A DNA stretch of 58,607 nt from Bacteroidota bacterium (GTDB lineage Bacteria; Bacteroidota; Bacteroidia; Chitinophagales; Chitinophagaceae), in NCBI GenBank assembly GCA_029561255.1, contig JAKQJH010000201.1, positions 1 to 58,607 on the forward strand, read 5' to 3'. The notes under the pieces were generated by a model. The model did not search any database. It had not been told where the DNA came from and saw only the letters and a list, made by a program, of their open reading frames with translations. The position numbers and the translations under genes are program-made. This document shows, piece after piece, positions 1-54,620 of the stretch (within the stretch, counting starts at the first letter, position 1; each line of letters begins with the position of its first letter).

Positions 1-84
1 GGGGATACGAGTTTGATTGAGAATGGGTTTGATGAGCGGACGGGGAAGAAGTTCTATAAGCTATATTATGACACTGAGTTGTAA
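1..84 (+). CDS. 3' end of an unidentified protein (partial)
   Basis: The window opens inside a reading frame that runs from base 1 to a TAA at 82-84 and encodes the last 27 residues of a protein. The tail is rich in charged and aromatic residues (it contains FDERTGKKFYKLYYD), and I do not recognise the family from so little sequence. The final A of the stop codon is also the first base of the heptad repeat that follows, so the gene end touches a repeated element. Confidence 0.55.
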   Translation, partial: GDTSLIENGFDERTGKKFYKLYYDTEL

Positions 85-228
85 GTAAAAAGTAAAAATT
101 AAAAAGTAAAAAATAATAAAGCGGAAGGAGCAATTATATACTGAACACTCCTGAAGAAGAAAAAAAATACTGTCAGAAAATTATCTTCGAACTTTCAGAC
201 TGCAATTTTTACTTTTTAATTTTGACTT
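84..228 (-). repeat. AGTAAAA-family heptad inverted repeat, copy 1
   Basis: This intergenic element of about 145 bp has ends made of 7-bp units. The left arm reads AGTAAAA AGTAAAA at 84-97, then ATTAAAA and AGTAAAA. The right arm, read on the minus strand from 228, is AGTCAAA, ATTAAAA, AGTAAAA, ATTGCAG. The arms are inverted, and the core (CTGAAAG just inside the right arm, GCTTTAT near the left) matches copies at 7786-7936 and 8741-8883 when reverse-complemented. It lies between a plus-strand stop codon and the 3' end of the next gene. Confidence 0.85.
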
Positions 229-6542: not shown

Positions 6543-7790
6543 ATGCAACCAAAACAATATGGCATTTTCTCCCTGCCCGTAATCGTGGGCGCCCTGGGTT
6601 TTTTCGTGGATATTTATGATCTTCTGCTTTTCAGTATTGTCCGCCGTTCCAGTTTTGCCGAACTGGGTGTAGCCGAATCTGCCATGAAATCCACCGGCGA
6701 AAACATCATCAGCTGGCAGATGCTTGGACTCACTATCGGTGGTATTCTTTGGGGCATGATGGGGGATAAGAAGGGACGTAAAAGTGTGCTCTTTGGTTCG
6801 ATCCTCCTTTATTCCTTTGCCACCATTGCCAATGGAATGGCGCAGACAATTGAACAATACACCTGGCTGCGGTTCATTGCCGGACTGGGATTGGCGGGTG
6901 AACTCGGGGCCAGTATCACCCTCACGAGTGAATTATTACCCAAAGAAAAACGAGGGATTGCCGCAGCCCTGATTGCCAGCAGCGGGGTGATGGGTACGAT
7001 TGCGGCTTATTTTGTTCACTGGCTGTCCGATGAAAACTGGCGGCTCTGTTATTATATCGGTGGCGCAATGGGACTGGCCCTGCTCTTATTACGCGTGGGG
7101 GTATTGGAAAGCGGTTTATTTGATGCGTCAAAAAAAGCCAAAGTGGCTCATGGTAATTTCCTTCATTTTTTTAATAACCGGGATCGTTTTGCCCGCTATA
7201 TGCGGGGTATCCTGATCGGGTTGCCGGTCTGGTATATTATCGGGGTACTAATCAGTTTCTCCGATGAATTTGCCAAGCAGTTCGACATCACCGGATTTGA
7301 TCAGCCTACCGCCCTGATGCTCCAATATGTAGCTTTACTTTTCGGTGATATGACGGCGGGACTGCTAAGTAATGTGATCCGGAGCCGCAAGAAAACCCTC
7401 CTGATCTTTTACGCGATCACTGCCTTTTTCCTGGCGATTTTCTTTATCACAAAAGGCGGCGGCTCGGCCACCAATATGTACCTGATCTGTATGGGACTCG
7501 GTTTTGGCTCCGGTATTTCCGTATTATATATCACTATGAGTGCCGAAACCTTCGGCACCAATTTACGAGCCACGGCCGCCATCTCTATACCCAATTTGGT
7601 TCGTGGTTTTCTGCCCGTCATTCTCCTGATCTTCCAGTGGCTGCGCAGTGAAAACGTGCTGAATAACTATATCAGCGGAGCCTGGGTCACCGGCCTGATC
7701 GTATTGCTGGTAGGGTTTGTGTCGGTGCTTTATACTAAGGAAACCTGGGGGAAGGAGCTGGATTTTCTGGAAGAAACGGGAAGGAAGTAA
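6543..7790 (+). CDS. MFS transporter, metabolite:proton symporter type
   Basis: The 415-residue protein has about twelve hydrophobic segments. The MFS loop 2-3 signature is clear (GMMGDKKGRKSVLFGS), followed by FIAGLGLAGELGASITL and ELLPKEKRG, which place it near the sugar or metabolite:H+ symporter branch. An Asp in helix 1 (FFVDIYDLLLF) is typical of that branch. The start at 6543 (MQPKQYG) fits the family better than a frame that opens 60 bp earlier. It is divergent from the cytochrome gene, with 116 bp between them. The TAA stop (7788-7790) lies inside a heptad unit of the next repeat. The substrate cannot be read from the sequence. Confidence 0.88.
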   Translation: MQPKQYGIFSLPVIVGALGFFVDIYDLLLFSIVRRSSFAELGVAESAMKSTGENIISWQMLGLTIGGILWGMMGDKKGRKSVLFGSILLYSFATIANGMAQTIEQYTWLRFIAGLGLAGELGASITLTSELLPKEKRGIAAALIASSGVMGTIAAYFVHWLSDENWRLCYYIGGAMGLALLLLRVGVLESGLFDASKKAKVAHGNFLHFFNNRDRFARYMRGILIGLPVWYIIGVLISFSDEFAKQFDITGFDQPTALMLQYVALLFGDMTAGLLSNVIRSRKKTLLIFYAITAFFLAIFFITKGGGSATNMYLICMGLGFGSGISVLYITMSAETFGTNLRATAAISIPNLVRGFLPVILLIFQWLRSENVLNNYISGAWVTGLIVLLVGFVSVLYTKETWGKELDFLEETGRK

Positions 7791-7936
7791 AAAGTCAAAA
7801 GTAAAAAGTAAAAATTGCAGGTTGAAAGATTGAAAATTTATTCCTGACTGTTCATTTCTGCCTTTGCTCGGAGCTTCTTTATATAAATGTTTTTTCTGCT
7901 TTCGTATTTTTTACTTTTTACTTTTTACTTTTGACT
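7786..7936 (+). repeat. AGTAAAA-family heptad inverted repeat, copy 2
   Basis: The left arm is five units in perfect 7-bp register: AGTAAAA (7786), AGTCAAA, AGTAAAA, AGTAAAA, ATTGCAG, ending at 7820. The right arm is the complement (TTTTACT units and a terminal TTTGACT at 7930-7936). The core shares GTTGAAAGATTGAAA, a CATTTCT word and TTTTTCTGCTTT with copy 3. The upstream transporter gene takes its stop codon from the first unit. Confidence 0.9.
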
Positions 7937-7964
7937 TACCACATCGCTACTTCAGAAATTAATT

Positions 7965-8741
7965 ATGACAAAACTTCTAATATCACTCACCCTTGCCATC
8001 ACATCAATTTGCTGGATATCTCCTGTAAAGAAAACCCCGGCGATCTACCAGCTGACAATCTTTCAGTATAAAGACAGTGTACAGGAAAAAACCCTGGAGA
8101 CCTATTTTGAACAGGCGTTACTTCCTGCATTGCACAAACTGGAATATAACCAGGTGGGCGTCTTTAAGTCCTGGGCCAATGATACATCGGCTGTTAAGAA
8201 AATCTATGTGCTGGTGGCCGGGAAATCAATGGATGAACTGAATGGAATTAAGGACAAACTCGCGAAAGATGGCGCGTACCTCGATAAAGGGAAAGCATAC
8301 CTGGATGCGATATATACAAGCGCTCCATACTACCGGATAGAAACGATATACCTGAAAGCGTTTTCCATGGCTCCAGAACTGACCTTGCCTGCTTTGAAGG
8401 GCCCGAAAAGCGAAAGGGTCTACGAACTGCGTAGTTATGAAAGTGCCACGGAAAAGATCTTCCGGAATAAAGTACATATGTTTAATGAAGGGGGAGAGAT
8501 CGCCCTTTTTAAAAGGTTAAATTTCAACGCCGCCTTTTACAGCGAAGTGATTGCCGGCAGCAAAATGCCCAACCTGATGTACATGACTTGTTTTGAAAAC
8601 ATGACCGACCGCGATGCACATTGGAAAAGCTTTGGCAGTGATCCGGAATGGAAAAGATTATCCGCCCTCCCCGAATACCAGCATAATGTATCGCTAAATG
8701 AGAAGAATTTTTTAAGACCGGTTGACTACTCGGATTATTAA
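7965..8741 (+). CDS. NIPSNAP family protein, exported
   Basis: This 258-residue protein has a short N-terminal signal segment (LLISLTLAITSICWI) and two ferredoxin-like NIPSNAP domains. The second is the clearer, starting at VYELRSYES and ending with SFGSDPEWKRLSALPEY, the family hallmark. The first, from IYQLTIFQYKD, has diverged. NIPSNAP proteins are poorly understood; bacterial exported forms are often near sugar or oxidoreductase genes, and here a PQQ sugar dehydrogenase gene faces it downstream. The gene is flanked on both sides by copies of the same heptad repeat. Confidence 0.88.
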   Translation: MTKLLISLTLAITSICWISPVKKTPAIYQLTIFQYKDSVQEKTLETYFEQALLPALHKLEYNQVGVFKSWANDTSAVKKIYVLVAGKSMDELNGIKDKLAKDGAYLDKGKAYLDAIYTSAPYYRIETIYLKAFSMAPELTLPALKGPKSERVYELRSYESATEKIFRNKVHMFNEGGEIALFKRLNFNAAFYSEVIAGSKMPNLMYMTCFENMTDRDAHWKSFGSDPEWKRLSALPEYQHNVSLNEKNFLRPVDYSDY

Positions 8742-8883
8742 GTAAAAATTAAAAAGTAAAAATAGCAGGCTGAAAGATTGAAACTACATTCCTGGCACTT
8801 CATTTCTTCCAATTTTTGAAGATTCAATATAAAATGATTTTTCTGCTTTAGAATTTTTTACTTTTTACTTTTTAATTTTGACT
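8741..8883 (+). repeat. AGTAAAA-family heptad inverted repeat, copy 3
   Basis: The left arm begins at the last A of the upstream stop codon and reads AGTAAAA, ATTAAAA, AGTAAAA, ATAGCAG. The right arm closes with TTTGACT at 8877-8883. The core (GCTGAAAGATTGAAA, CATTTCTTCC, TTTTTCTGCTTTAGAAT) matches copy 2 closely. The element fills almost the whole space between two convergent genes, where a terminator would be expected. Confidence 0.9.
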
Positions 8884-8898
8884 TCCCGACTTCTTCCC

Positions 8899-10128
8899 CT
8901 ATTTCTTGCTGACCCTGTACAAACTCCCTCCATCCGTAACCGCAAACAACATTCCCTTATAAAATGCCACATCGCGGAAGCGTTCGTTTTTATCTACCAG
9001 TAAACGTTCCTCTCCGGTGATTTTATTGTTTTTTATGATCAGGCGGGCAATATGTTGTCCGCTGAGTCCTCCGATAAAAAGATTATTTTCCCATTCAGGT
9101 ATATCCTTGCTTTTGTAGAAAGTCATACCACTGGGGGAGAGGGTGGGGTCCCAATAATATACGGGCTGTTCCATCCCGGCTTTCTGCTGCAGGGCTTCAC
9201 CTACTTGCTGTCCGCTGTACTCAATGCCATAGGTAATGACGGGCCAGCCATAGTTCTTGCCGGCTTTAATGATATTCAGTTCATCGCCACCACGTGGACC
9301 GAACTCTGCTTCCCAGAGATCGCCAGTTACCGGATGGATATCCAGGCTCTGGCAGTTGCGGATTCCATAGGCATAGATCTCGGGGATGGCACCGGCTTGT
9401 TTGGCAAAGGGATTTCCGGGAGCGGGTTTGCCGTCTTTCGTGATACGGAATATCTTACCTAAGCCTGAACTGAGTAACTGGGCCTGTGCCCGGCCTTCGG
9501 AAATGGAACGTTCACCGGTGCTGACAAAGAGATAACCGCTTTTGTCAAATAATAAACGGGAACCGAAATGCAAGACACTTTTCAAAGCGGGTGTTGCCCT
9601 GAAAATGACCACCGGATTATCCACTGTCCCGTTTTTTTCATTGAGTTGTCCTTTGGCTACTGCCATCAGGTTACCGTTACCGGAGGTTTCTGAATAGGAC
9701 CAGTAAATGGTTTTATTGGTCGAATATGCCGGATCCGGTGTTACATCCAGCATGCCACCCTGGCCTTTATCATCTACCTGGGGGAATCCGGTGATTTTTT
9801 TCACCAATGCACCATCGGTGGTATGAATCTGCATATACCCTTTCTTAAAAGTCAGCAACAACTGTCCATCGGGCAGGGGTACCACGGCCCAGGGTTGCCC
9901 GAGTTTATCACCGATCTTGTCCACCTTATAAGCAGTAGTGGTTTTGGCACCACTAATCCTTGTCTGACCGGTAAATGCCGGTTTATAATCCGCATTGGCT
10001 TTCCGGGTTTCCACCGGGGGCAATTGATCGCCGTCTGTAGTTGTGACAGGATTGCCATTGCTTTGGATACAGGCATTCAAAAGGATGGCCGATCCGGCAA
10101 GTAAAAAAAGGACAGGTAATTGTTTCAT
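8899..10128 (-). CDS. PQQ-dependent sugar dehydrogenase, lipoprotein
   Basis: The 409-residue protein starts at MKQLPVLFLL, which provides a lipoprotein signal with lipobox LLNAC; the preceding 15 codons of the open frame are not needed. The body is a six-bladed propeller of the soluble glucose/sorbosone dehydrogenase family. Key family words are present: GQPWAVVPLPDG, HFGSRLLFDKSGYLFV (the His expected to act as base), EAEFGPRGGDELN, KNYGWPVITYG and LSPSGMTFY. It should oxidise an aldose sugar with PQQ and Ca2+ at the envelope. The substrate and the PQQ source are unknown; no pqq genes are in the window. Confidence 0.9.
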   Translation of the reverse strand: MKQLPVLFLLAGSAILLNACIQSNGNPVTTTDGDQLPPVETRKANADYKPAFTGQTRISGAKTTTAYKVDKIGDKLGQPWAVVPLPDGQLLLTFKKGYMQIHTTDGALVKKITGFPQVDDKGQGGMLDVTPDPAYSTNKTIYWSYSETSGNGNLMAVAKGQLNEKNGTVDNPVVIFRATPALKSVLHFGSRLLFDKSGYLFVSTGERSISEGRAQAQLLSSGLGKIFRITKDGKPAPGNPFAKQAGAIPEIYAYGIRNCQSLDIHPVTGDLWEAEFGPRGGDELNIIKAGKNYGWPVITYGIEYSGQQVGEALQQKAGMEQPVYYWDPTLSPSGMTFYKSKDIPEWENNLFIGGLSGQHIARLIIKNNKITGEERLLVDKNERFRDVAFYKGMLFAVTDGGSLYRVSKK

Positions 10129-29473: not shown

Positions 29474-29531
29474 CATAACTCTGCGGGATTGGATACCCTG
29501 CGATTTCATATGCCTGCGAACCGGGCATGGG

Positions 29532-29593: not shown

Positions 29594-29698
29594 AGTCAGT
29601 TGTCAGTTGTCAGGTGTCAGATGTCAGGAAACAGCCCCACCTCACAGATAAATGTTCAAGGCACGTCAGTCGTACTTCGTCCCTCTTACTTCGTACTT
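29594..29698. repeat. TGTCAG/CGTACTT heptad element, copy 1
   Basis: The left array is five 7-bp units (AGTCAGT, TGTCAGT, TGTCAGG, TGTCAGA, TGTCAGG, 29594-29628), followed by GAAACAGCCCC. A core with ATGTTCAAGGCACGTCAGT (29652-29670) leads to a right array of four units (CGTACTT, CGTCCCT, CTTACTT, CGTACTT, 29671-29698). The array ends two bases before the stop codon of the histidine kinase gene. Confidence 0.9.
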
Positions 29699-29700
29699 TA

Positions 29701-31146
29701 TCAGGCGGGTTTTGGTACTGAAAACGAGAACGTGCTTCCTTCTCCGGGCTCACTTTCGATGTAAAGCTGTCCGCCGTTTCTCACGAGGAATTCTTTGCAG
29801 AGCATCAGTCCCAGTCCGGTACCGGATTCGCTGGCCGTACCCTTGGTGGTGAAGTAGTCGTTGTTACGGATACGCGTCAGGGCTTCATGACTCATCCCCA
29901 TACCACTGTCCTGCACATATATTTCAAGGAAGGTCGGGTGTTCGTGTACCCCGATACAGATCTTCCCTTTTTCGGGAGTGAATTTGATGGCATTGGAGAG
30001 CAGGTTCCGCAGCACGAGACTCATCATATCTTTATCACAATAACCAAATACCTTGGGAGGGGCATCATTGAGTAAGATCACTCCTTTATTACGGGCTGGC
30101 AGGAGGAGGGCCTGGTAAACTTCATTGATTGAATCTTCAATATCCACCACCTCGGGATTAACGGTATGCGCCTGCATCTGGGCTTTGGCCCACTGCAGCA
30201 GGTTCTCCATCAGTCCTACCGCATAATTCATATCATTGAGTACTTCCGGTATATTGTTTTTCAGGTCTTCCGCAGAAAGTTTTTGCTCATGCGCTTCTTT
30301 AAACAGGTTGCGGATTGCATACATCGGCGCTTTCAGGTCATGCGAAATGATGCTGAATAATTTGGTCTTTACGGAATTCAATTCAGCGAGCTGGGTGGCC
30401 TGTTGCTTTAGCAGGGTGGAACTTTCTTCCAGCTTACGGCTTTGCTTCTGAATCTGCGTGTTCTTATCCTCCAAAATGGTGTTCTTGGTAAGGATACGTC
30501 CCTGGTAAATACTGTTCTCTTTTTTTATCAGGAATAAGCCATAGAATATAAATAGTAAGGAAAGGCCCTGGTTCATCAGGTATAAGCCATTACTGATTTC
30601 ACGGAGTTCAAATGGCTGGTGACGGATTACCACCGCCAGCAGGAAGTAGCTGATCATGGAAAAACTCAGGGAGAAAATAATATTACCCAGTGAATTCAGG
30701 AAGAAAACGGCCAGTATCCCAAACAGGATAAAGGAAAGGCTGATGCCCGGATTAAAACCATAGAGATACACCACACAGGTGAAAAACGGGTAAAGGATAA
30801 AATAAGCCACCAATGACATTTCCTGTCTTTTCGTGTAGTTCAGGAAAAGAACCAGCAAACTCACCAATGCGGGCAGACAGGCCACCAGCCAGGCAGAGGC
30901 GGGTAATCCCCGGCTCATCAGCATACCGGCAATCGGGAAGAGCAGACCGATCAGCAGCTGAAAGAAATTTACCTGGTTAAAAATGCGCAGCTTTCGCTGA
31001 TCATATTCTTCCATAGCCGCAGTCACCCCAAATGACTGGATGAGATTAAAAAGGGTCAGGATCTGTTTCCGCTGAAAATCAAAACGGCGCTCATACCGTG
31101 TTGCAGTTTCTTTCTGCTGGAGTAGTGGCTGTGCAGTAAATTCCAT
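29701..31146 (-). CDS. Sensor histidine kinase with six-helix membrane region
   Basis: The 481-residue protein starts at MEFTAQPLLQ; a frame opening 51 bp earlier has a hydrophobic run less typical of a start. Residues 40-205 contain about six transmembrane helices of a 7TMR- or MASE-like type. A coiled coil (KNTQIQKQSRKLEESSTLLKQ) leads to the HisKA domain with FSIISHDLKAPM (phospho-accepting His). The ATPase has the N-box LLSNAIKFTPEKG, VQDSGMGMS and GTGLGLML. No receiver or response regulator gene is adjacent. Its start faces the cyclase gene across a 485-bp region. Confidence 0.9.
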   Translation of the reverse strand: MEFTAQPLLQQKETATRYERRFDFQRKQILTLFNLIQSFGVTAAMEEYDQRKLRIFNQVNFFQLLIGLLFPIAGMLMSRGLPASAWLVACLPALVSLLVLFLNYTKRQEMSLVAYFILYPFFTCVVYLYGFNPGISLSFILFGILAVFFLNSLGNIIFSLSFSMISYFLLAVVIRHQPFELREISNGLYLMNQGLSLLFIFYGLFLIKKENSIYQGRILTKNTILEDKNTQIQKQSRKLEESSTLLKQQATQLAELNSVKTKLFSIISHDLKAPMYAIRNLFKEAHEQKLSAEDLKNNIPEVLNDMNYAVGLMENLLQWAKAQMQAHTVNPEVVDIEDSINEVYQALLLPARNKGVILLNDAPPKVFGYCDKDMMSLVLRNLLSNAIKFTPEKGKICIGVHEHPTFLEIYVQDSGMGMSHEALTRIRNNDYFTTKGTASESGTGLGLMLCKEFLVRNGGQLYIESEPGEGSTFSFSVPKPA

Positions 31147-35643: not shown

Positions 35644-35838
35644 TTGTCAGATGCCAGGTGTCAGGTGTCAGGGAACAGCCCGAAAAAAAGTTGTCAGATG
35701 CCAGTTGCCAGATGTCAGGAAACAGCCCTTATTTAGAAGGTGTTCGTTGTTAGCTGTTAGGTGTTAGGAAACAGCCCCTCCTATAAGTTATATGTTCAAG
35801 GCACGTCAGTCGTACTTCGTACCTCGTACTTCTTACTT
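35644..35838. repeat. TGTCAG/CGTACTT heptad element, copy 2, expanded
   Basis: Three left arrays are in 7-bp register: TTGTCAG ATGCCAG GTGTCAG GTGTCAG (35644-35671); TTGTCAG ATGCCAG TTGCCAG ATGTCAG (35691-35718); and TTGTTAG CTGTTAG GTGTTAG (35747-35767). Each is followed by a GGAACAGCC or GAAACAGCC word. The shared core and the CGTACTT array (35811-35838) match copy 1; bases 35792-35820 are identical to 29652-29680. The last unit (CTTACTT, 35832-35838) contains the stop of the amidase gene. Confidence 0.92.
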
Positions 35839-36558
35839 TGTATTCATCCATTCCACCAGCGCCTTCTTGATCGCTTCCCCGATCAGTTTTTGTTTTGCGG
35901 GATCGGTGAGGATTGCCCGGCTGGCCGCATTATCGCCTATTTCGAGCAATACCCGGTAGGGGGCGGTATTGACCTGTTCATCCAGGCTGTAAAAACTGAG
36001 TTTGCCGGTGGCGGCACAGCGATAGTCATTCCGGCCGGTTGTGCTGTCCAGCAACACCCCCCGGTTTTCCATACCCGAAACCTCACAAATGGCTTTTACC
36101 AGGTGAGCTGCCAGTTCCCGATTGTCTGCCTCATACTTATCTCCGTAATGGATATAGCCCCATACGGCATTCCGCCGGGTGCCCCCGTTATTGTGTACAG
36201 AAATGAAAACCCGGGGCTTCAACTTATTTGATTCCTGTAATTCATAAGCATAACCGGATATTTTCCCCTCAATAAGAGCCGAAGTATGCTGGATTTTGGT
36301 ATTGCTGCCAGAGTCGGCATGGTGGTATTCCGTTTTTCCCAGGCTCCAGACTTTATATTCTTTCCGTCCGGATTGGGTAGCCATCGCTGCTTCCACTATA
36401 GCATTACAGGTTGCTGCTTCACTGAAATCCTTGCCGGTGTCGGTCTGGTGGGAGGGTTGCCAGACTACAACCACTTTAGGACCAGTTAGCCTTTTAGCCG
36501 GGTTGCAACCAAAGGGTAGTAAAAGGATCAGCCAAAGCAGGGGGTTCCAGTATTTCAT
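35833..36558 (-). CDS. N-acetylmuramoyl-L-alanine amidase, Amidase_3 lipoprotein
   Basis: The 241-residue product has a lipoprotein signal with Cys18 (LLLPFGC). The zinc ligands of the Amidase_3 family are in place: His37 (WQPSHQTD), Glu47 (FSEAA), His122 (FISVHNN), with catalytic Glu206 (VLLEIGDN). It should cleave the amide bond between MurNAc and the stem peptide. Its last codon and stop (35833-35838) lie within a heptad unit of the neighbouring repeat, so the protein ends in repeat-derived sequence. The 236 bp upstream separate it from the divergent smc gene. Confidence 0.88.
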   Translation of the reverse strand: MKYWNPLLWLILLLPFGCNPAKRLTGPKVVVVWQPSHQTDTGKDFSEAATCNAIVEAAMATQSGRKEYKVWSLGKTEYHHADSGSNTKIQHTSALIEGKISGYAYELQESNKLKPRVFISVHNNGGTRRNAVWGYIHYGDKYEADNRELAAHLVKAICEVSGMENRGVLLDSTTGRNDYRCAATGKLSFYSLDEQVNTAPYRVLLEIGDNAASRAILTDPAKQKLIGEAIKKALVEWMNTK

Positions 36559-39700: not shown

Positions 39701-40331
39701 ACGGCTGGAAAACCTGGGTGAAGTAAACCCCACGGCTATTGAGGCATTCACGGAAATGAAGAAACGGTATGACTTTATTGTAGAGCAGAAGACGGACCTG
39801 GTCAATGCCAAGGACAGTCTGCTGAAAACAATCGAAGAAGTGGAAGCAACGGCCAACCAGAAATTCCTGGAGACCTTCCATAAAGTAAGAGAGAATTTCC
39901 AGAAAGTATTCAAAACTCTGTTTACCGAGGATGACCAGGCAGACCTGGTACTTGAAAATCCAGAAAACCTGGCGGATAGTGGTATCGATGTGGTAGCTAA
40001 ACCGAAAGGCAAGCGCCCCTCTTCACTGACCCAGTTGAGCGGGGGAGAACGGACCCTGACGGCTACCGCCCTGCTGTTTGCCATTTACCTGATCAAACCG
40101 GCCCCTTTCTGTATCCTGGATGAGGTGGACGCTCCGCTGGATGATGCCAACGTAAGCAAATTCACCAATATGATCCGGCAGTTCAGTGATAATTCCCAGT
40201 TCATTATTGTCACCCACAATAAAATGACCATGAGTACCGTGGATGTTATTTACGGGGTTACCATGCAGGAACCGGGGGTAAGTAAACTGGTACCGGTGGA
40301 TTTCAGGAATCTGAAGACCGCGCAGAACTAG
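36795..40331 (+). CDS. smc: Chromosome segregation protein SMC
   Basis: The 1178-residue protein has the complete SMC layout. It starts at GTG (MRLKSLEIKGFKSFADKT). Walker A is GPNGCGKSN (about residues 32-40). Two long coiled coils flank a hinge at about 500-665 (DSMEGYPDSVKFLHNN, LSDVLYV, TGGSVGLIEGKKIGR). The C-terminal head has the signature LSGGERTLTATALL and Walker B FCILDEVDAPLDD. It compacts and segregates chromosomes, working with ScpA/ScpB, which are not in the window. Long antisense open frames within it are shadows. Its TAG stop is the first word of a heptad element. Confidence 0.97.
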   Translation: MRLKSLEIKGFKSFADKTVVNFDDNITGIVGPNGCGKSNIVDSIRWVIGEQKISQLRSENLDSLVFNGSKTRSASGLAEVSLTFENTRNLLPTEFSTVTVTRKFYKSGESEYRLNDVQCRLKDIQNLFMDTGISTDSYAIIALDMVDDLIKDKDNSRRKMLEQAAGISIYKTRKKEARQKLEATESDLARIEDLLFEINNQLKALESQAKKAEKYHEIKKDYREISIELAKASLEGFNLSYKELNEQSEVETDKKHRLEAEIGTREAELEQEKLAFVERERQLQSMQHQFNEMLQTVRSKENDKNLSAQRLEHLHEKEGSLGEFLQKAEGQLKGIEESIGFTALQVTDEEKSLEMLSEQLTQLNNEVSAKREILDERRRMLDSLRSEYQQIQRSQFDAEKKVAVADTSVQNLQRVIHQIEEERVQREDQRLHLDDERQLKEKELGIKKVDLEQLQQHQENTKEQILQTQAVLDSLRNNLADETRKLDSKKNEHDLLKSMIDSMEGYPDSVKFLHNNSNWNHSAPILSDVLYVNEEFRTALENVLEPYLSYYVVNNLQEGLQAVHLLDENKKGKANFFLLDKVNDGASGIAAHQLEGAIPALSVVEVEEKYRKLAEHLLGNVFIADSEDALQNSNGFVVIEKHGKYVKGKYSLTGGSVGLIEGKKIGRAKNLEKLQEEIMAQDTVVESLRATIQARHNEVIAFNEDLRESAIRETEREIQQLTNAVFALHNKLENLHSNQVSSEHRLEELNSQMQQTHTSVAGVRNELAEFNEMLLANSAKLAEADEAFKVTESDYNEASRQYNEFNLNVTKQQSKISGLKQELEFKNNQLHDLRQQIESNTSHLADTRLNIDQSAGLLKEIEDALLELLRRKEEEERSLNEADQAYYNLRNQLSEKESEIRHQVKEKEQVEYLLAAIKDKLNELKLQLAGMKERLNVEFRINLEDILGESRNGEVPVEELQEKADRMKKRLENLGEVNPTAIEAFTEMKKRYDFIVEQKTDLVNAKDSLLKTIEEVEATANQKFLETFHKVRENFQKVFKTLFTEDDQADLVLENPENLADSGIDVVAKPKGKRPSSLTQLSGGERTLTATALLFAIYLIKPAPFCILDEVDAPLDDANVSKFTNMIRQFSDNSQFIIVTHNKMTMSTVDVIYGVTMQEPGVSKLVPVDFRNLKTAQN

Positions 40332-40389
40332 TTAGTAGCTGGTAGCCTGCCTGCCGGCAAAGGCAGGTCGGTAGTTAGTAGTCTGATGA
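40329..40389. repeat. TTAGTAG-family heptad element, copy 1
   Basis: Units TAGTTAG and TAGCTGG begin exactly at the TAG stop of smc. A GC-rich centre (CCTGCCTGCCGGCAAAGGCA) follows, then TCGGTAG, TTAGTAG and TCTGATG. The centre itself can pair (GCCTG/CAGGC type). A related array lies at 46635. Confidence 0.75.
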
Positions 40390-46634: not shown

Positions 46635-46669
46635 CGACTACTAACTACTATCTACCTACTACTAACTAT
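46635..46669 (-). repeat. TTAGTAG-family heptad array, copy 2
   Basis: Five units on the plus strand: CGACTAC, TAACTAC, TATCTAC, CTACTAC, TAACTAT (46635-46669). On the minus strand these read as TAG-rich units. The array encodes the last five codons and the stop of the YdeI gene. Confidence 0.85.
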
Positions 46670-51475: not shown

Positions 51476-51940
51476 ATGGCTAATACGTATGCACAGATTT
51501 ATCTCCAGATTGTATTTGCGGTGCAAGGAAGGGAGGCAAGAATTCATGAATCTTTCCGGGATGAATTACAAATGTATATGTCGGGTATTATCAGCAAAAA
51601 TGGCCAGAAGCTTTATGCCATTTATTGCATGCCTGACCATACACATATTTTAATTAGCTATAAACCCGGATTGATGTTGATTGCTGATCTTGTACGGGAC
51701 ATCAAATCCTGTTCAACGGCTTTTTTGAAATCAAAAGGGTTTGTCAGGACTGGATTCAGCTGGCAATCAGGCTATGGCGTTTTTTCCTATCACAAAGAAT
51801 TACTCCCCATTGTCACCGCCTATATCCTGAACCAACCGGCCCATCATGAAAAAAAGAAATTCCAACAAGAATACCTGGAATTTTTAAACGAATTTGAAAT
51901 AGAGTATAACGAGCGATATTTATTTGAATTTTACGAGTAG
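51476..51940 (+). CDS. REP-associated / IS200-like Y1 transposase (RAYT type)
   Basis: This 154-residue protein belongs to the Y1 HUH transposase family. The HUH motif is in CMPDHTHILI (His55 and His57). The catalytic tyrosine is in AYILNQPAHHEKKKF (Tyr116). The middle has LVRDIKSCSTAFLKSKG, and the C-terminus reads FLNEFEIEYNERYLFEFYE. It is accompanied by REP-like palindromes upstream, as expected for a TnpA-REP enzyme that acts on them. Its stop is 4 bp before the parC ATG, so it may be co-transcribed with an essential gene. Confidence 0.9.
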   Translation: MANTYAQIYLQIVFAVQGREARIHESFRDELQMYMSGIISKNGQKLYAIYCMPDHTHILISYKPGLMLIADLVRDIKSCSTAFLKSKGFVRTGFSWQSGYGVFSYHKELLPIVTAYILNQPAHHEKKKFQQEYLEFLNEFEIEYNERYLFEFYE

Positions 51941-51944
51941 CATT

Positions 51945-54458
51945 ATGAGCGCAGCAAAGAATAAAATAACAGACGTACAGAACAACGACAGCGGCTTACA
52001 TGGGCAATACAAATCCTGGTTCCTCGAGTATGCCTCCTATGTAATCCTGGAAAGGGCCGTGCCCGCCGTGGAAGATGGGTTGAAACCGGTACAACGCCGG
52101 ATTCTTCATGCGATGAAGGAAATGGATGATGGTCGTTTTAATAAAGTAGCCAATATTATCGGACAAGCCATGCAGTATCACCCACACGGGGATGCCAGTA
52201 TCGGGGATGCCCTGGTAAATATGGGCCAAAAGGATCTGCTGATTGATACCCAGGGAAACTGGGGAGATGTCCGTACCGGAGATGATGCAGCAGCCGCCCG
52301 TTACATTGAAGCCCGCCTGAGCAAATTTGCCCTGGACGTGGCCTTCAATGCCAAAACCACGGAATGGCAGCTCAGTTATGACGGACGGAAAAACGAACCG
52401 GTGACCCTGCCGATGAAATTCCCCCTGCTCCTGGCTCATGGAGCCGATGGAATTGCCGTGGGTTTATCGACCAAGATTCTCCCGCATAATTTTGGTGAAC
52501 TGATTGACGCCGCGGTCAAATACCTGCGCGGCCGCAAGTTTGACCTGTTTCCTGATTTCCTGACGGGCGGGATGATTGATGTGGCAGACTATAACCAGGG
52601 AAAAAGAGGAGGGAAGGTAAAAGTAAGGGCCCATATCGAGGAAGTAGATAAGAAAACACTGGCGATTAAAAGTGTGCCTTACGGGGTAACCACCACGCAG
52701 ATGATGGAATCCATTGTAAAGGCCAATGACCAGGGAAAGATAAAGATCAAAAAAGTAACGGATAATACAGCAGCGGAAGTGGAGATCCAGGTGGACCTGG
52801 CTCCCGGTATTTCTCCGGATATTACCATTGATGCCTTGTATAAATTTACGGACTGTGAAGTATCCATTTCCCCGAATGCCTGTGTGATCGTGGAGCAGCG
52901 CCCGCAGTTCCTGGGCGTACAGGAGTTATTGAAACTATCAGTTGACAGAACCAAGGACCTGCTGGAACAGGAATTGAAGATCCGGCTAGCCGAGTTACAG
53001 GAAAAATGGCATTACACTTCGCTGGAGAAAATCTTCTTTGAGGAAAAGATCTACAAGGAACTGGAGAAAAAACATGAGACCTGGGATAAAGTACTGGAGT
53101 CGATTGATAAAGCTTTTACCCCCTTTAAGAAACTATTGAAAAGGGATATTTCCAGGGAAGACATTATCAAGCTGACAGAGAAACCGGTACGCCGGATTTA
53201 TAAGCTCGATATTGATGAACTGAACGCCCAGATCAAAGGACTGGAAGCCGATATCAGGCAGGTGAAAAATGACCTGGCTAACCTGGTGGATTATGCGGTG
53301 GCCTATTATGAAAACCTGCTGAAGAAATATGGTAAGGGGCGGGAGCGAAAAACCGAGATCAAAGCTTTTGAAGTAATCGAAGCCAAACACGTGGCCATTG
53401 CCAATACCAAACTGTTCGTCAATCGGGCAGAAGGATTTATCGGAACCGGTTTGAAAAAAGATGAGCTCCTGTTTGAGTGTTCTGACCTGGATGATATCAT
53501 TGTGTTTGCCAAACGGGGGATTATGAAAGTGGTTAAAGTGTCCGATAAGGCCTTTATCGGGAAGGAAATTCTCCATGCGGCGGTCTTTCAGAAGAATGAT
53601 GAGCGCACCACCTATAATATGATCTACCTGGATGGAGCGACCGGGATGAGTTATGCCAAACGATTTAACGTGACCGGGGTAACCCGGGACAAAGAGTATG
53701 ACCTTACCAAGGGCCATGAAAAATCAAAAATTCATTATTTCACCGCGAATCTGAACGGGGAGGCCGAAGTGGTGAAGATTGTGCTGGGCAATTGTACCGC
53801 GCGGATCAAGGATTTTGATTATTATTTTGAAGAGCTGGAGATAAAGGGACGCAATAGCCAGGGAAACCAGGTCACCAAGTATCCCATTAAATCCGTTAAG
53901 TTCAAGGAAAAAGGCCGGAGCACCATTGCCGGTAAAAAACTCTGGTATGATGATCAGTTTGGACGGTTGAACAGCGATGAGAAAGGATCCTACCTCGGTG
54001 TGTTTGAATCGGAGGACAAGATCCTGGTGATGTTCCGGGATGGTAATTATGAAATCACTGACCAGGAACTGACCCAGAAACTGGATTCAGAGAAAGTGAT
54101 CTTTATCGAGAAATTCAAACCGGAGCGGATTGTGACGGCAGTATATGTGGATATGGAGAAGAAACAGTTTATGGTGAAACGGTTTAAAATTGAAACCACC
54201 ACACTGAAGAATAAGTTCTCTTTTATCAAGGAAGGAGAAGGCAATTATGTGGAAGCCGTTACGACTATAGATGATCCCATCCTGGCGATGCAGCAGGGAA
54301 GGGGCGCACAGATCCGGAAAGGAAAACTGAAGATGAATAAAATCGCCGAAATTACCGGCTGGAGAACAGTAGGGACCAAACTGGCCGATTACAGCAAATC
54401 CACAGAAATGGAGTGGGTGAAACCGAAAGAGGAAGACAATCAGCCGGAATTATTTTAA
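51945..54458 (+). CDS. parC: DNA topoisomerase IV subunit A
   Basis: From MSAAKNKITD the product has 837 residues. The breakage-rejoining domain has the typical VQRRILHAMKEMDDGRF and QYHPHGDASIGDAL words, and the active-site tyrosine is Tyr120 in AAARYIEARL. The C-terminal domain is a beta-pinwheel without the GyrA box QRRGGKG, which supports topoisomerase IV over gyrase. It works with ParE, encoded 2.5 kb upstream. The transposase gene sits between them, its stop 4 bp before the ATG, so no separate promoter is visible directly upstream. Confidence 0.93.
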   Translation: MSAAKNKITDVQNNDSGLHGQYKSWFLEYASYVILERAVPAVEDGLKPVQRRILHAMKEMDDGRFNKVANIIGQAMQYHPHGDASIGDALVNMGQKDLLIDTQGNWGDVRTGDDAAAARYIEARLSKFALDVAFNAKTTEWQLSYDGRKNEPVTLPMKFPLLLAHGADGIAVGLSTKILPHNFGELIDAAVKYLRGRKFDLFPDFLTGGMIDVADYNQGKRGGKVKVRAHIEEVDKKTLAIKSVPYGVTTTQMMESIVKANDQGKIKIKKVTDNTAAEVEIQVDLAPGISPDITIDALYKFTDCEVSISPNACVIVEQRPQFLGVQELLKLSVDRTKDLLEQELKIRLAELQEKWHYTSLEKIFFEEKIYKELEKKHETWDKVLESIDKAFTPFKKLLKRDISREDIIKLTEKPVRRIYKLDIDELNAQIKGLEADIRQVKNDLANLVDYAVAYYENLLKKYGKGRERKTEIKAFEVIEAKHVAIANTKLFVNRAEGFIGTGLKKDELLFECSDLDDIIVFAKRGIMKVVKVSDKAFIGKEILHAAVFQKNDERTTYNMIYLDGATGMSYAKRFNVTGVTRDKEYDLTKGHEKSKIHYFTANLNGEAEVVKIVLGNCTARIKDFDYYFEELEIKGRNSQGNQVTKYPIKSVKFKEKGRSTIAGKKLWYDDQFGRLNSDEKGSYLGVFESEDKILVMFRDGNYEITDQELTQKLDSEKVIFIEKFKPERIVTAVYVDMEKKQFMVKRFKIETTTLKNKFSFIKEGEGNYVEAVTTIDDPILAMQQGRGAQIRKGKLKMNKIAEITGWRTVGTKLADYSKSTEMEWVKPKEEDNQPELF

Positions 54459-54460
54459 TG

Positions 54461-54620
54461 AGAAACGAGAAATGAGTAATCAGTAATGAGTAATGAGTAA
54501 ATCGTGTTACTGGTAATGGTTAATAAAATTAAACCCTCCGGAAACGGAGGGTTTAATTTTATATTCACTCTTCGATATTTACTCATTACTGATTACTGAT
54601 TATTCATTACTCATTTTCGT
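54461..54620. repeat. TGAGTAA-family heptad inverted repeat with central terminator
   Basis: The left arm holds four units (TGAGTAA, TCAGTAA, TGAGTAA, TGAGTAA, 54473-54500). The right arm holds their complements (TTTACTC, ATTACTG, ATTACTG, ATTATTC, ATTACTC, ATTTTCG, 54578-54619). Both outer ends read AGAAACGA. The element encloses the terminator at 54525-54560 and lies between two convergent genes; the stop of the minus-strand gene (54611-54613) lies in a right-arm unit. Confidence 0.92.
54525..54560. terminator. Bidirectional terminator with a perfect 16-bp stem
   Basis: AAAATTAAACCCTCCG (54525-54540), a GAAA tetraloop, then CGGAGGGTTTAATTTT (54545-54560). The stem is perfect and has T-rich ends on both strands. 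It serves parC and the convergent exported-protein gene. Confidence 0.95.

Follow-up and report, generated by a model that had tools for sequence, protein, structure and literature searches.

The heptad arrays that touch stop codons in a Chitinophagaceae genome are best explained, at a probability that we put at roughly 0.58, as the arms of Foldback-like repeat elements that are tolerated at gene junctions, with their supply of stop codons a permissive by-product. The arrays are real and strongly non-random, and we find the idea that they cap reading frames less interesting than the type of element and how it has spread. The DNA analyzed, referred to here as the window, is the whole 58,607-nt contig JAKQJH010000201.1 of a 3.63-Mb draft genome (Bacteroidota bacterium, GCA_029561255.1). 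Array coordinates come partly from TRF, and genes were called with our own hexamer heuristic.

Heptad Arrays in the Window Touch the Stop Codons of Neighboring Genes

The original prediction named seven genes whose stop codon lies in or touches a 7-bp array, and the coordinates of all seven were confirmed. An AAGTAAA arm at 7785–7814 (plus strand) holds the stop of the MFS gene (7788–7790), and AAGTAAA arms at 8740–8763 and 83–121 (both plus strand) touch those of the NIPSNAP gene (8739–8741) and the partial gene (82–84); each has an inverted partner on the minus strand, at 7905–7937 (also AAGTAAA), 8855–8884 and 206–228, respectively. The amidase stop (35833–35835) sits in an AAGTACG arm (35810–35842, minus strand), and TGTCAGG/TGTTAGG arms with AACAGCCC units between them occupy 35645–35768 (plus strand). 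The smc stop, a TAG at 40329–40331, begins an array (40329–40345, plus strand) that is interrupted by a 22-bp palindrome (40346–40367) and continues at 40368–40383 (plus strand). The stop of the gene ending at 54611 is held by an inverted TAATGAG-class arm (54579–54615, minus strand), separated by a core with a terminator-like hairpin (54501–54578) from a purine-rich arm of the same class (54457–54500, plus strand). This latter arm touches the stop of a gyrA-like gene (54456–54458) that was missing from the predicted list, so that both arms of the 54457–54615 element contact a stop.

For YdeI, the claim that the last five sense codons are repeat also proved correct: they read ATA GTT AGT AGT AGG and are followed by a TAG (46652–46654, minus strand) inside an array that repeat finding places at 46637–46668 (minus strand), for which no partner arm was found nearby. 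By TRF coordinates, two further gene ends join the list. At 29701, where a kinase gene ends, an AAGTACG arm (29670–29698, minus strand) comes within 2 nt of the stop, with a TGTCAG arm at 29595–29627 (plus strand), and at 8899 a gene's stop is separated from another array by 14 nt. Pfam confirmed the MFS, NIPSNAP, Amidase_3 and OmdA/YdeI assignments, and identified the gene ending at 8899 as GSDH, the one ending at 29701 as carrying a histidine-kinase-type ATPase domain (with a HisKA match below the cut-off), and the one ending at 54458 as DNA gyrase/topoisomerase IV subunit A; no Pfam match was obtained for the gene ending at 54611.

Period 7 Exceeds Chance and Arrays Cluster at Stop Codons

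Among periods 4–15 in the window, the threshold was reached only by period 7 (11 arrays) and its harmonic 14 (10 arrays). Across 429,616 bp of the genome, 63 period-7 arrays scored at least 13, compared with none in one second-order Markov control, while period 8 gave 11 arrays and the other periods up to 24 (multiples of 7 excluded) gave at most 8. The main survey covered 61 pieces (716,275 bp) and returned 139 arrays at a score of at least 11, a threshold that misses both the YdeI array (found at a score of at least 10) and the palindrome-interrupted smc array. Placement counts were based on the 107 arrays in internal gaps, with the 32 that lacked one excluded. Some contigs had been chosen from lists of array-like hits and are biased for array density, and 20 others were taken by contig number alone.

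The expectation that array-to-stop distances would depart from random was clearly borne out. At gene 3′ ends, 39 of the 93 adjoining arrays overlap the stop or begin no more than 3 nt away, whereas arrays placed at random within their gaps would give 8.3; at gene starts there is no excess, with 3 of 74 adjoining arrays within 3 nt and 5.1 expected. Pieces that had not been picked for arrays (the window plus the 20 contigs) gave 9/17 at stops vs. 2.8 expected and 1/11 at starts vs. 0.6 expected. In 80 smc-centered loci of relatives, 22 of which carry any array at the survey threshold, the pattern was weaker (stops, 17/49 vs. 7.9 expected; starts, 3/39 vs. 3.9 expected). Arrays were present in 39/178 tandem, 19/42 convergent and 7/55 divergent gaps. 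We also considered whether MAG contigs break at arrays and rejected this, since an array lay within 150 bp of only 1/39 unchosen contig ends, the same as in random windows (0.026).

Arrays Form Inverted Pairs and Recur at Separate Loci

Among 42 neighboring array pairs (at most 300 bp apart), 27 face inward, with a purine-rich array on the left and a pyrimidine-rich array on the right, and one faces outward; the remaining 14 run in the same direction, and these non-inverted pairs count against our preferred reading. The inward pairs are 73–314 bp long, and the heptad class is matched in 12 of the 27, compared with 3.4 by permutation (maximum of 8 in 1000). Arrays that abut a stop are purine-rich on the gene strand in 38 of 39 cases, compared with 23 of 48 distant arrays, and the inverted arrangement itself makes the gene-facing arm automatically purine-rich on that strand.

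Within the window, the elements at 78–228, 7792–7942 and 8740–8887 are 75–83% identical, one of them inverted, with 78–228 matching 7792–7942 in inverted orientation. One 22-mer arm was found at 12 loci in 716 kb (chance about 8e-8), and identical arm 16–24-mers occur at 5–12 separate loci. These observations bear on an alternative in which the heptads arise in place, by replication slippage seeded at stops (AAGTAA, TAGTTAG, TGAGTAA), and spread through non-coding space until checked by coding sequence, with no mobile element involved. Growth of this kind would suit the variation of heptads among loci and, at a given stop, among genomes, as well as the dominance of period 7 whatever the sequence, and heptads are given as the commonest long simple repeats in most surveyed genomes (Mrazek 2007, as cited in the excerpts of PMC4679880). 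However, arms shared between loci and repeated whole elements need copying from one locus to another, the inverted class pairing exceeds permutation, and at one junction described below two arms and a core occupy what is 5 bp in two relatives. We therefore regard growth in place as unlikely, and favor dispersed, heptad-armed elements.

The arrays comprise 45 distinct consensus units, the commonest classes being AATGAGT and AGTAGTT. AGT is over-represented, appearing in 19 of the 45 units vs. 8.5 after shuffling and in 88 of the 139 arrays vs. 31, an excess that plain slippage does not predict and that counts against the preferred reading. Columns of AGT vary less than others (4.5% vs. 9.4%), although the contrast is stronger for AAT, TAA and CAG. 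Across the order, a pattern of AGT at pitch 7 with 15 fixed bases matched in 131 of the 198 genomes. A reversed control pattern, however, also matches many of those genomes, some of them more often, so this order-wide count supports the pitch of 7 and not AGT. Two genomes, G064 and G077, have degenerate AGTNNNN pitch-7 arrays with variable spacers (L282, L284, L285, L286, L293, L299) that lie inside the frame, 115 nt from the stops of different called genes, and may be one homologous family; unchosen stretches of the same two genomes held no AGT runs.

Two other repeated features were seen. A gene with flanking heptad elements is present twice (L147 4533–6162 and L150 28–1824) and was considered as a transposase, a candidacy rejected because its product is a metallo-beta-lactamase-fold protein. 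At 949–1192 of the window, between genes ending at 855 and 1210, lies a further dispersed repeat with many matches in the sister genome G004, at a site where no heptad array was listed.

Arm-Core-Arm Units Occupy Junctions That Are Often Near-Gapless in Relatives

We compared nine junctions with relatives classed as array-free, meaning that no array reached a score of 9, although degenerate heptads are visible in some such gaps (e.g., in G027 and G018). Six of the nine are near-gapless (−4 to 24 bp) in at least one array-free relative. The junction between the gyrA-like gene and the gene ending at 54611 measures 152 bp in the window, compared with 5 bp in both G009 and G024, 1 bp in G021, 34 bp in G027 and 40 bp in G018. 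At locus L162, genes 3 and 4 are 110 bp apart but overlap by 4 bp in five genomes (53 bp in G018); genes 11 and 12 are 127 bp apart but overlap by 4 bp in three genomes, with spacings of 3 bp in G010, 47 bp in G028, 92 bp in G018 and 139 bp in G027; and the 85 bp between genes 14 and 15 compare with 6, 42 and 35 bp in array-free relatives. At locus L163, genes 1 and 2 are separated by 795 bp vs. 2 and 3 bp in two relatives, and genes 2 and 3 by 117 bp vs. 24 bp in an array-free relative. Besides heptads, the 795-bp gap (L163 2518–3312) contains several palindromes of the CACCCC-CGGGG type.

Three of the nine junctions fit poorly and count against the preferred reading: L162 gene 0/1 (235 bp vs. 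117 and 129 bp in G009 and G028), and two divergent junctions, L163 gene 4/5 (330 bp vs. 82, 134, 145 and 265 bp) and L163 gene 7/8 (754 bp vs. 317 bp in G027). We left out L163 gene 6/7 (156 bp), where the gene arrangement differs in G024 and G028; G028 at the window gap at 54459, where a gene was mis-paired; the window gaps at 29474 and 46323, for which there was no comparable pair; and those at 7791, 8742 and 35571, where only G004 was comparable and has arrays too. Indeed, G004 shares arrays at the comparable syntenic array sites. On the strength of the near-gapless array-free junctions, the arm-core-arm units look as if they had been added exactly between genes, and the gapless, array-free state would probably be ancestral. 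No target-site duplication was recognized by eye in the printed junctions, the relatives having diverged.

Heptads Turn Over and One Core Is Inverted

In G004, the gene end corresponding to 29701 is found on two contigs, with TGA and AAGTACG heptads on one and TAG and AAGCGAG heptads on the other. These are likely strain variants, but could be separate loci or an assembly fault. At this gene end a tandem unit of about 49 bp (7 × 7) with GGGCTGTTTCC was counted by eye in five full copies on one contig (L197 279–499) and in three on the other (L222 7112–7238); the window has the unit in part only, near 29600. In a different relative, G027, four of eight array-ended genes are also array-ended at the same stop, each time with a different heptad, two of these being related. 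This excess over the other genes (4/8 vs. 1/17, p = 0.023) is uncorrected for the ten relatives tested and was absent in the other nine (G018, for example, gave 2/8 vs. 2/13).

The core at 54501–54578 is inverted in G004, where it is 91% identical as the reverse complement and 77% identical in the forward direction, with the loop of its inner hairpin not inverted. Inversion of the core would fit recombination or template switching between the arms.

Most C-Termini Lie Close to Those of an Array-Free Orthologue While Stop Codons Are Often Replaced

The original prediction further proposed to check whether proteins are shortened or extended at the arrays; two genes proved to be extended, and most end close to some array-free orthologue. 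We compared C-termini by eye for 16 genes that have an array no more than 40 nt from the stop and for which the loci compared include an orthologue lacking one, counting L163 gene 8, which has a repetitive tail, and excluding NIPSNAP, which has no array-free orthologue there. Thirteen end no more than one residue from at least one array-free orthologue (smc, the gyrA-like gene, the genes ending at 54611, 29701 and 8899, amidase, MFS, L162 genes 4 and 14, and L163 genes 1, 2, 3 and 6), a lenient comparison given that C-termini vary among orthologues. The MFS protein, for instance, exceeds three of its five array-free orthologues by about four residues and falls one residue short of the other two. 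Repeat-coded extensions past array-free orthologues were found in YdeI (four residues) and L162 gene 11 (eight residues). The YdeI tail reads GFKL or GFVL before the stop without an array (G008, G010), and GFKIVSSR or GFKIVRS with one (window, G004). In addition, the amidase stop falls two residues earlier in the window than in G004, both of which carry the array.

Stop codon identity differs as well: TAG ends 20 of 45 genes with an abutting array, compared with 48 of 361 others (p = 2.7e-6), which argues that the stop codon itself is often replaced, and the stop codon lies wholly within the array for 17 of the 39 abutting arrays.

These results bear directly on the proposal that the arrays insert at, or are kept as, universal 3′ caps that give stops in every frame. 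In its selective form, the proposal holds that arrays are retained for their three-frame stops as protection against read-through, and the TAG-rich stops of genes with abutting arrays would agree with it. So would the frame counts taken at face value: on the sense strand, 22 of the 39 abutting arrays have stops in three frames, nine in two, one in one and seven in none, whereas on the antisense strand only 1/39 has three-frame stops. This contrast vanished, however, when the arrays were compared with column-shuffled versions of themselves, which gave three-frame stops in 19.1 of 39 (sd 2.7). Some heptad classes do supply stops in every frame, but abutting TGTCGGG/TGTCAGG and AAGTACG arrays supply none. 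The base composition of the arms thus accounts for their richness in stops, and we see no indication that stops themselves are selected. Since smc and the gyrA-like gene end at the same residue as their array-free orthologues, the array adds no stop that they need. We conclude that the insertion half of the proposal survives, in that six of nine junctions point to insertion where genes end and stops can come from the arrays (YdeI, the TAG excess), but that the universal half does not, and that maintenance of the arrays as caps is very improbable.

RNA Structure, Terminators and Other Palindromes

A different functional reading is that the inverted arms form a stable hairpin immediately after the stop, with a role in protecting the mRNA end, in terminating transcription or in modulating termination; REP elements have comparable 3′-end hairpin roles. 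The position of the arrays behind stops would suit such a role, as would the terminator-like hairpin in the core of the 54457–54615 element and the folding of class-matched pairs, in which z falls as low as −14. Yet when the 27 inward pairs were folded, only 13 beat their shuffles (z < −2) and 14 did not, pairs of unlike class mostly folding no better than shuffles. This also counts against our preferred reading, and we rejected an RNA hairpin as a common rule. Intrinsic terminators (a G+C-rich hairpin plus a T run) were likewise rejected as the explanation, because terminator-like sites showed no enrichment (27/57 array gaps vs. 70/126 array-free gaps). Also weighing against a functional structure, 58 of the 80 smc-centered loci of relatives (mostly 10–24 kb) have no array at the survey threshold. 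A functional 3′-end structure therefore seems to us distinctly unlikely as the reason for the arrays, and we return below to dispersed elements. Rfam 15 gave no matches in the window at the gathering score.

The 22-bp palindrome within the smc array is CCTGCCTGCCGGCAAAGGCAGG, and a near relative (L009, with a 97% identical smc) has the array without it. Related palindromes were found 10 times in 716 kb, and for five of these a counted heptad array lies no more than 30 bp away; the palindrome may be a second small mobile unit. The window also encodes a Y1 (IS200/RAYT-like) transposase at 51476–51940, with CCCC-GGGG-type palindromes (CCCCGCTGGGG and CCCCGTAGGGG) upstream, which may belong to a REP/RAYT system separate from the heptads. 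When Y1 loci were fetched and inspected for flanking heptads, arrays were present in one of six, and a Y1/RAYT engine for the heptad arms was rejected as not linked. That no transposase is tied to the arrays, Y1 being the one family sought, counts against the preferred reading.

Proposed Mechanism and Implications

We propose that the arrays are the arms of short non-coding elements in which a core typically separates a purine-rich arm of tandem heptads from a pyrimidine-rich arm in inverted orientation, with some arms solitary. Copies are dispersed through this Chitinophagaceae genome and its relatives, identical arms and entire arm-core-arm units recurring at many loci. The elements appear to have been added exactly between genes, even where array-free relatives have 4-bp overlaps or spacings of 1–24 bp, and insertions would probably persist where the last essential codon is kept. 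The purine-rich arm on the gene strand, often carrying TAA, TAG or TGA, could then provide a new stop only a few codons from the old one, so that insertion at a gene end would be harmless; in light of the composition control, this would not by itself amount to a selected cap function. Copy-number changes, heptad turnover and the one inverted core suggest that the heptads expand, contract and change by slippage, and that exchange between the two arms, through recombination or template switching during replication, may keep the arms similar and flip the cores.

A more specific version, which we offer tentatively and at less than even odds, is that these elements form a bacterial Foldback-like mobile class with hypervariable heptad arms. 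The unit length of 7 and the inward purine polarity would stay constant, while the heptad itself would be exchanged from copy to copy and from species to species; the core could flip, and insertion would occur only at gene-gene junctions where an arm can take over the stop. If arms are truly swapped and cores flipped by template switching, the loci would be a natural record of that process. More broadly, the arrays suggest how dispersed DNA enters gapless gene junctions, rewriting stop codons at little cost, and they give a loosely defined group of heptad repeats the form of a testable element, one that has arms, a core and a junction. Annotated C-termini and stop-codon usage in such genomes may be partly repeat-derived and call for caution.

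Comparison With Known Systems

Foldback-type elements, such as Drosophila Foldback and Galileo, have inverted terminal arms of short tandem repeats around a variable core and occur as dispersed copies. The elements described here likewise have inverted arms of short tandem repeats (27/42 pairs inward) and dispersed copies. Unlike Foldback, they are bacterial, small and built of 7-bp units that differ between copies, and neither a transposase (of the Y1 family sought) nor a target duplication was found with them. REP/BIME elements, which are associated with RAYT (Y1) transposases, are small palindromic repeats at gene 3′ ends. Our arrays resemble them in lying at gene 3′ ends, as reflected in the frequencies by gap type, but their arms are tandem heptads with no fixed palindrome, and five of the six Y1 loci fetched are without arrays. 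Cyanobacterial heptamer STRRs, or long simple sequence repeats, are 7-bp tandem repeats that are abundant and patchy between genomes; they share the tandem 7-bp unit with our arrays, and we know of no description of them as inverted pairs flush with stop codons. Among the open papers listed for heptad, Foldback, REP and STRR topics (titles and abstracts), we found no inverted heptad-armed elements at gene junctions.

Heptamer-derived families are mentioned in excerpts of a survey of prokaryote satellites (PMC6749651). The closest precedent is the account of TAACTGA heptamer direct repeats by MacGregor (2015; PMC4679880), whose excerpts describe intergenic, tandem repeats in Beggiatoaceae, cyanobacteria and some Bacteroidetes. 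According to the same excerpts, forward TAACTGA repeats give three-frame stops, 13 cases overlap the stop of the upstream gene, some relatives without repeats have shorter gaps, and insertion, if the repeats are mobile, succeeds mainly at protein ends. Stop overlap, three-frame stops and protein-end insertion, the core of the original prediction, were therefore already in print. The arrays reported here share with TAACTGA repeats the tandem 7-bp unit, the intergenic position, the overlap with stops and the shorter repeat-free gaps. As the excerpts have it, however, the TAACTGA repeats consist of one heptad, related heptamers being rare, and lie mostly just 5′ of start codons, whereas ours comprise many consensus units, form inverted arm pairs around a core, and lie at stops, not starts.
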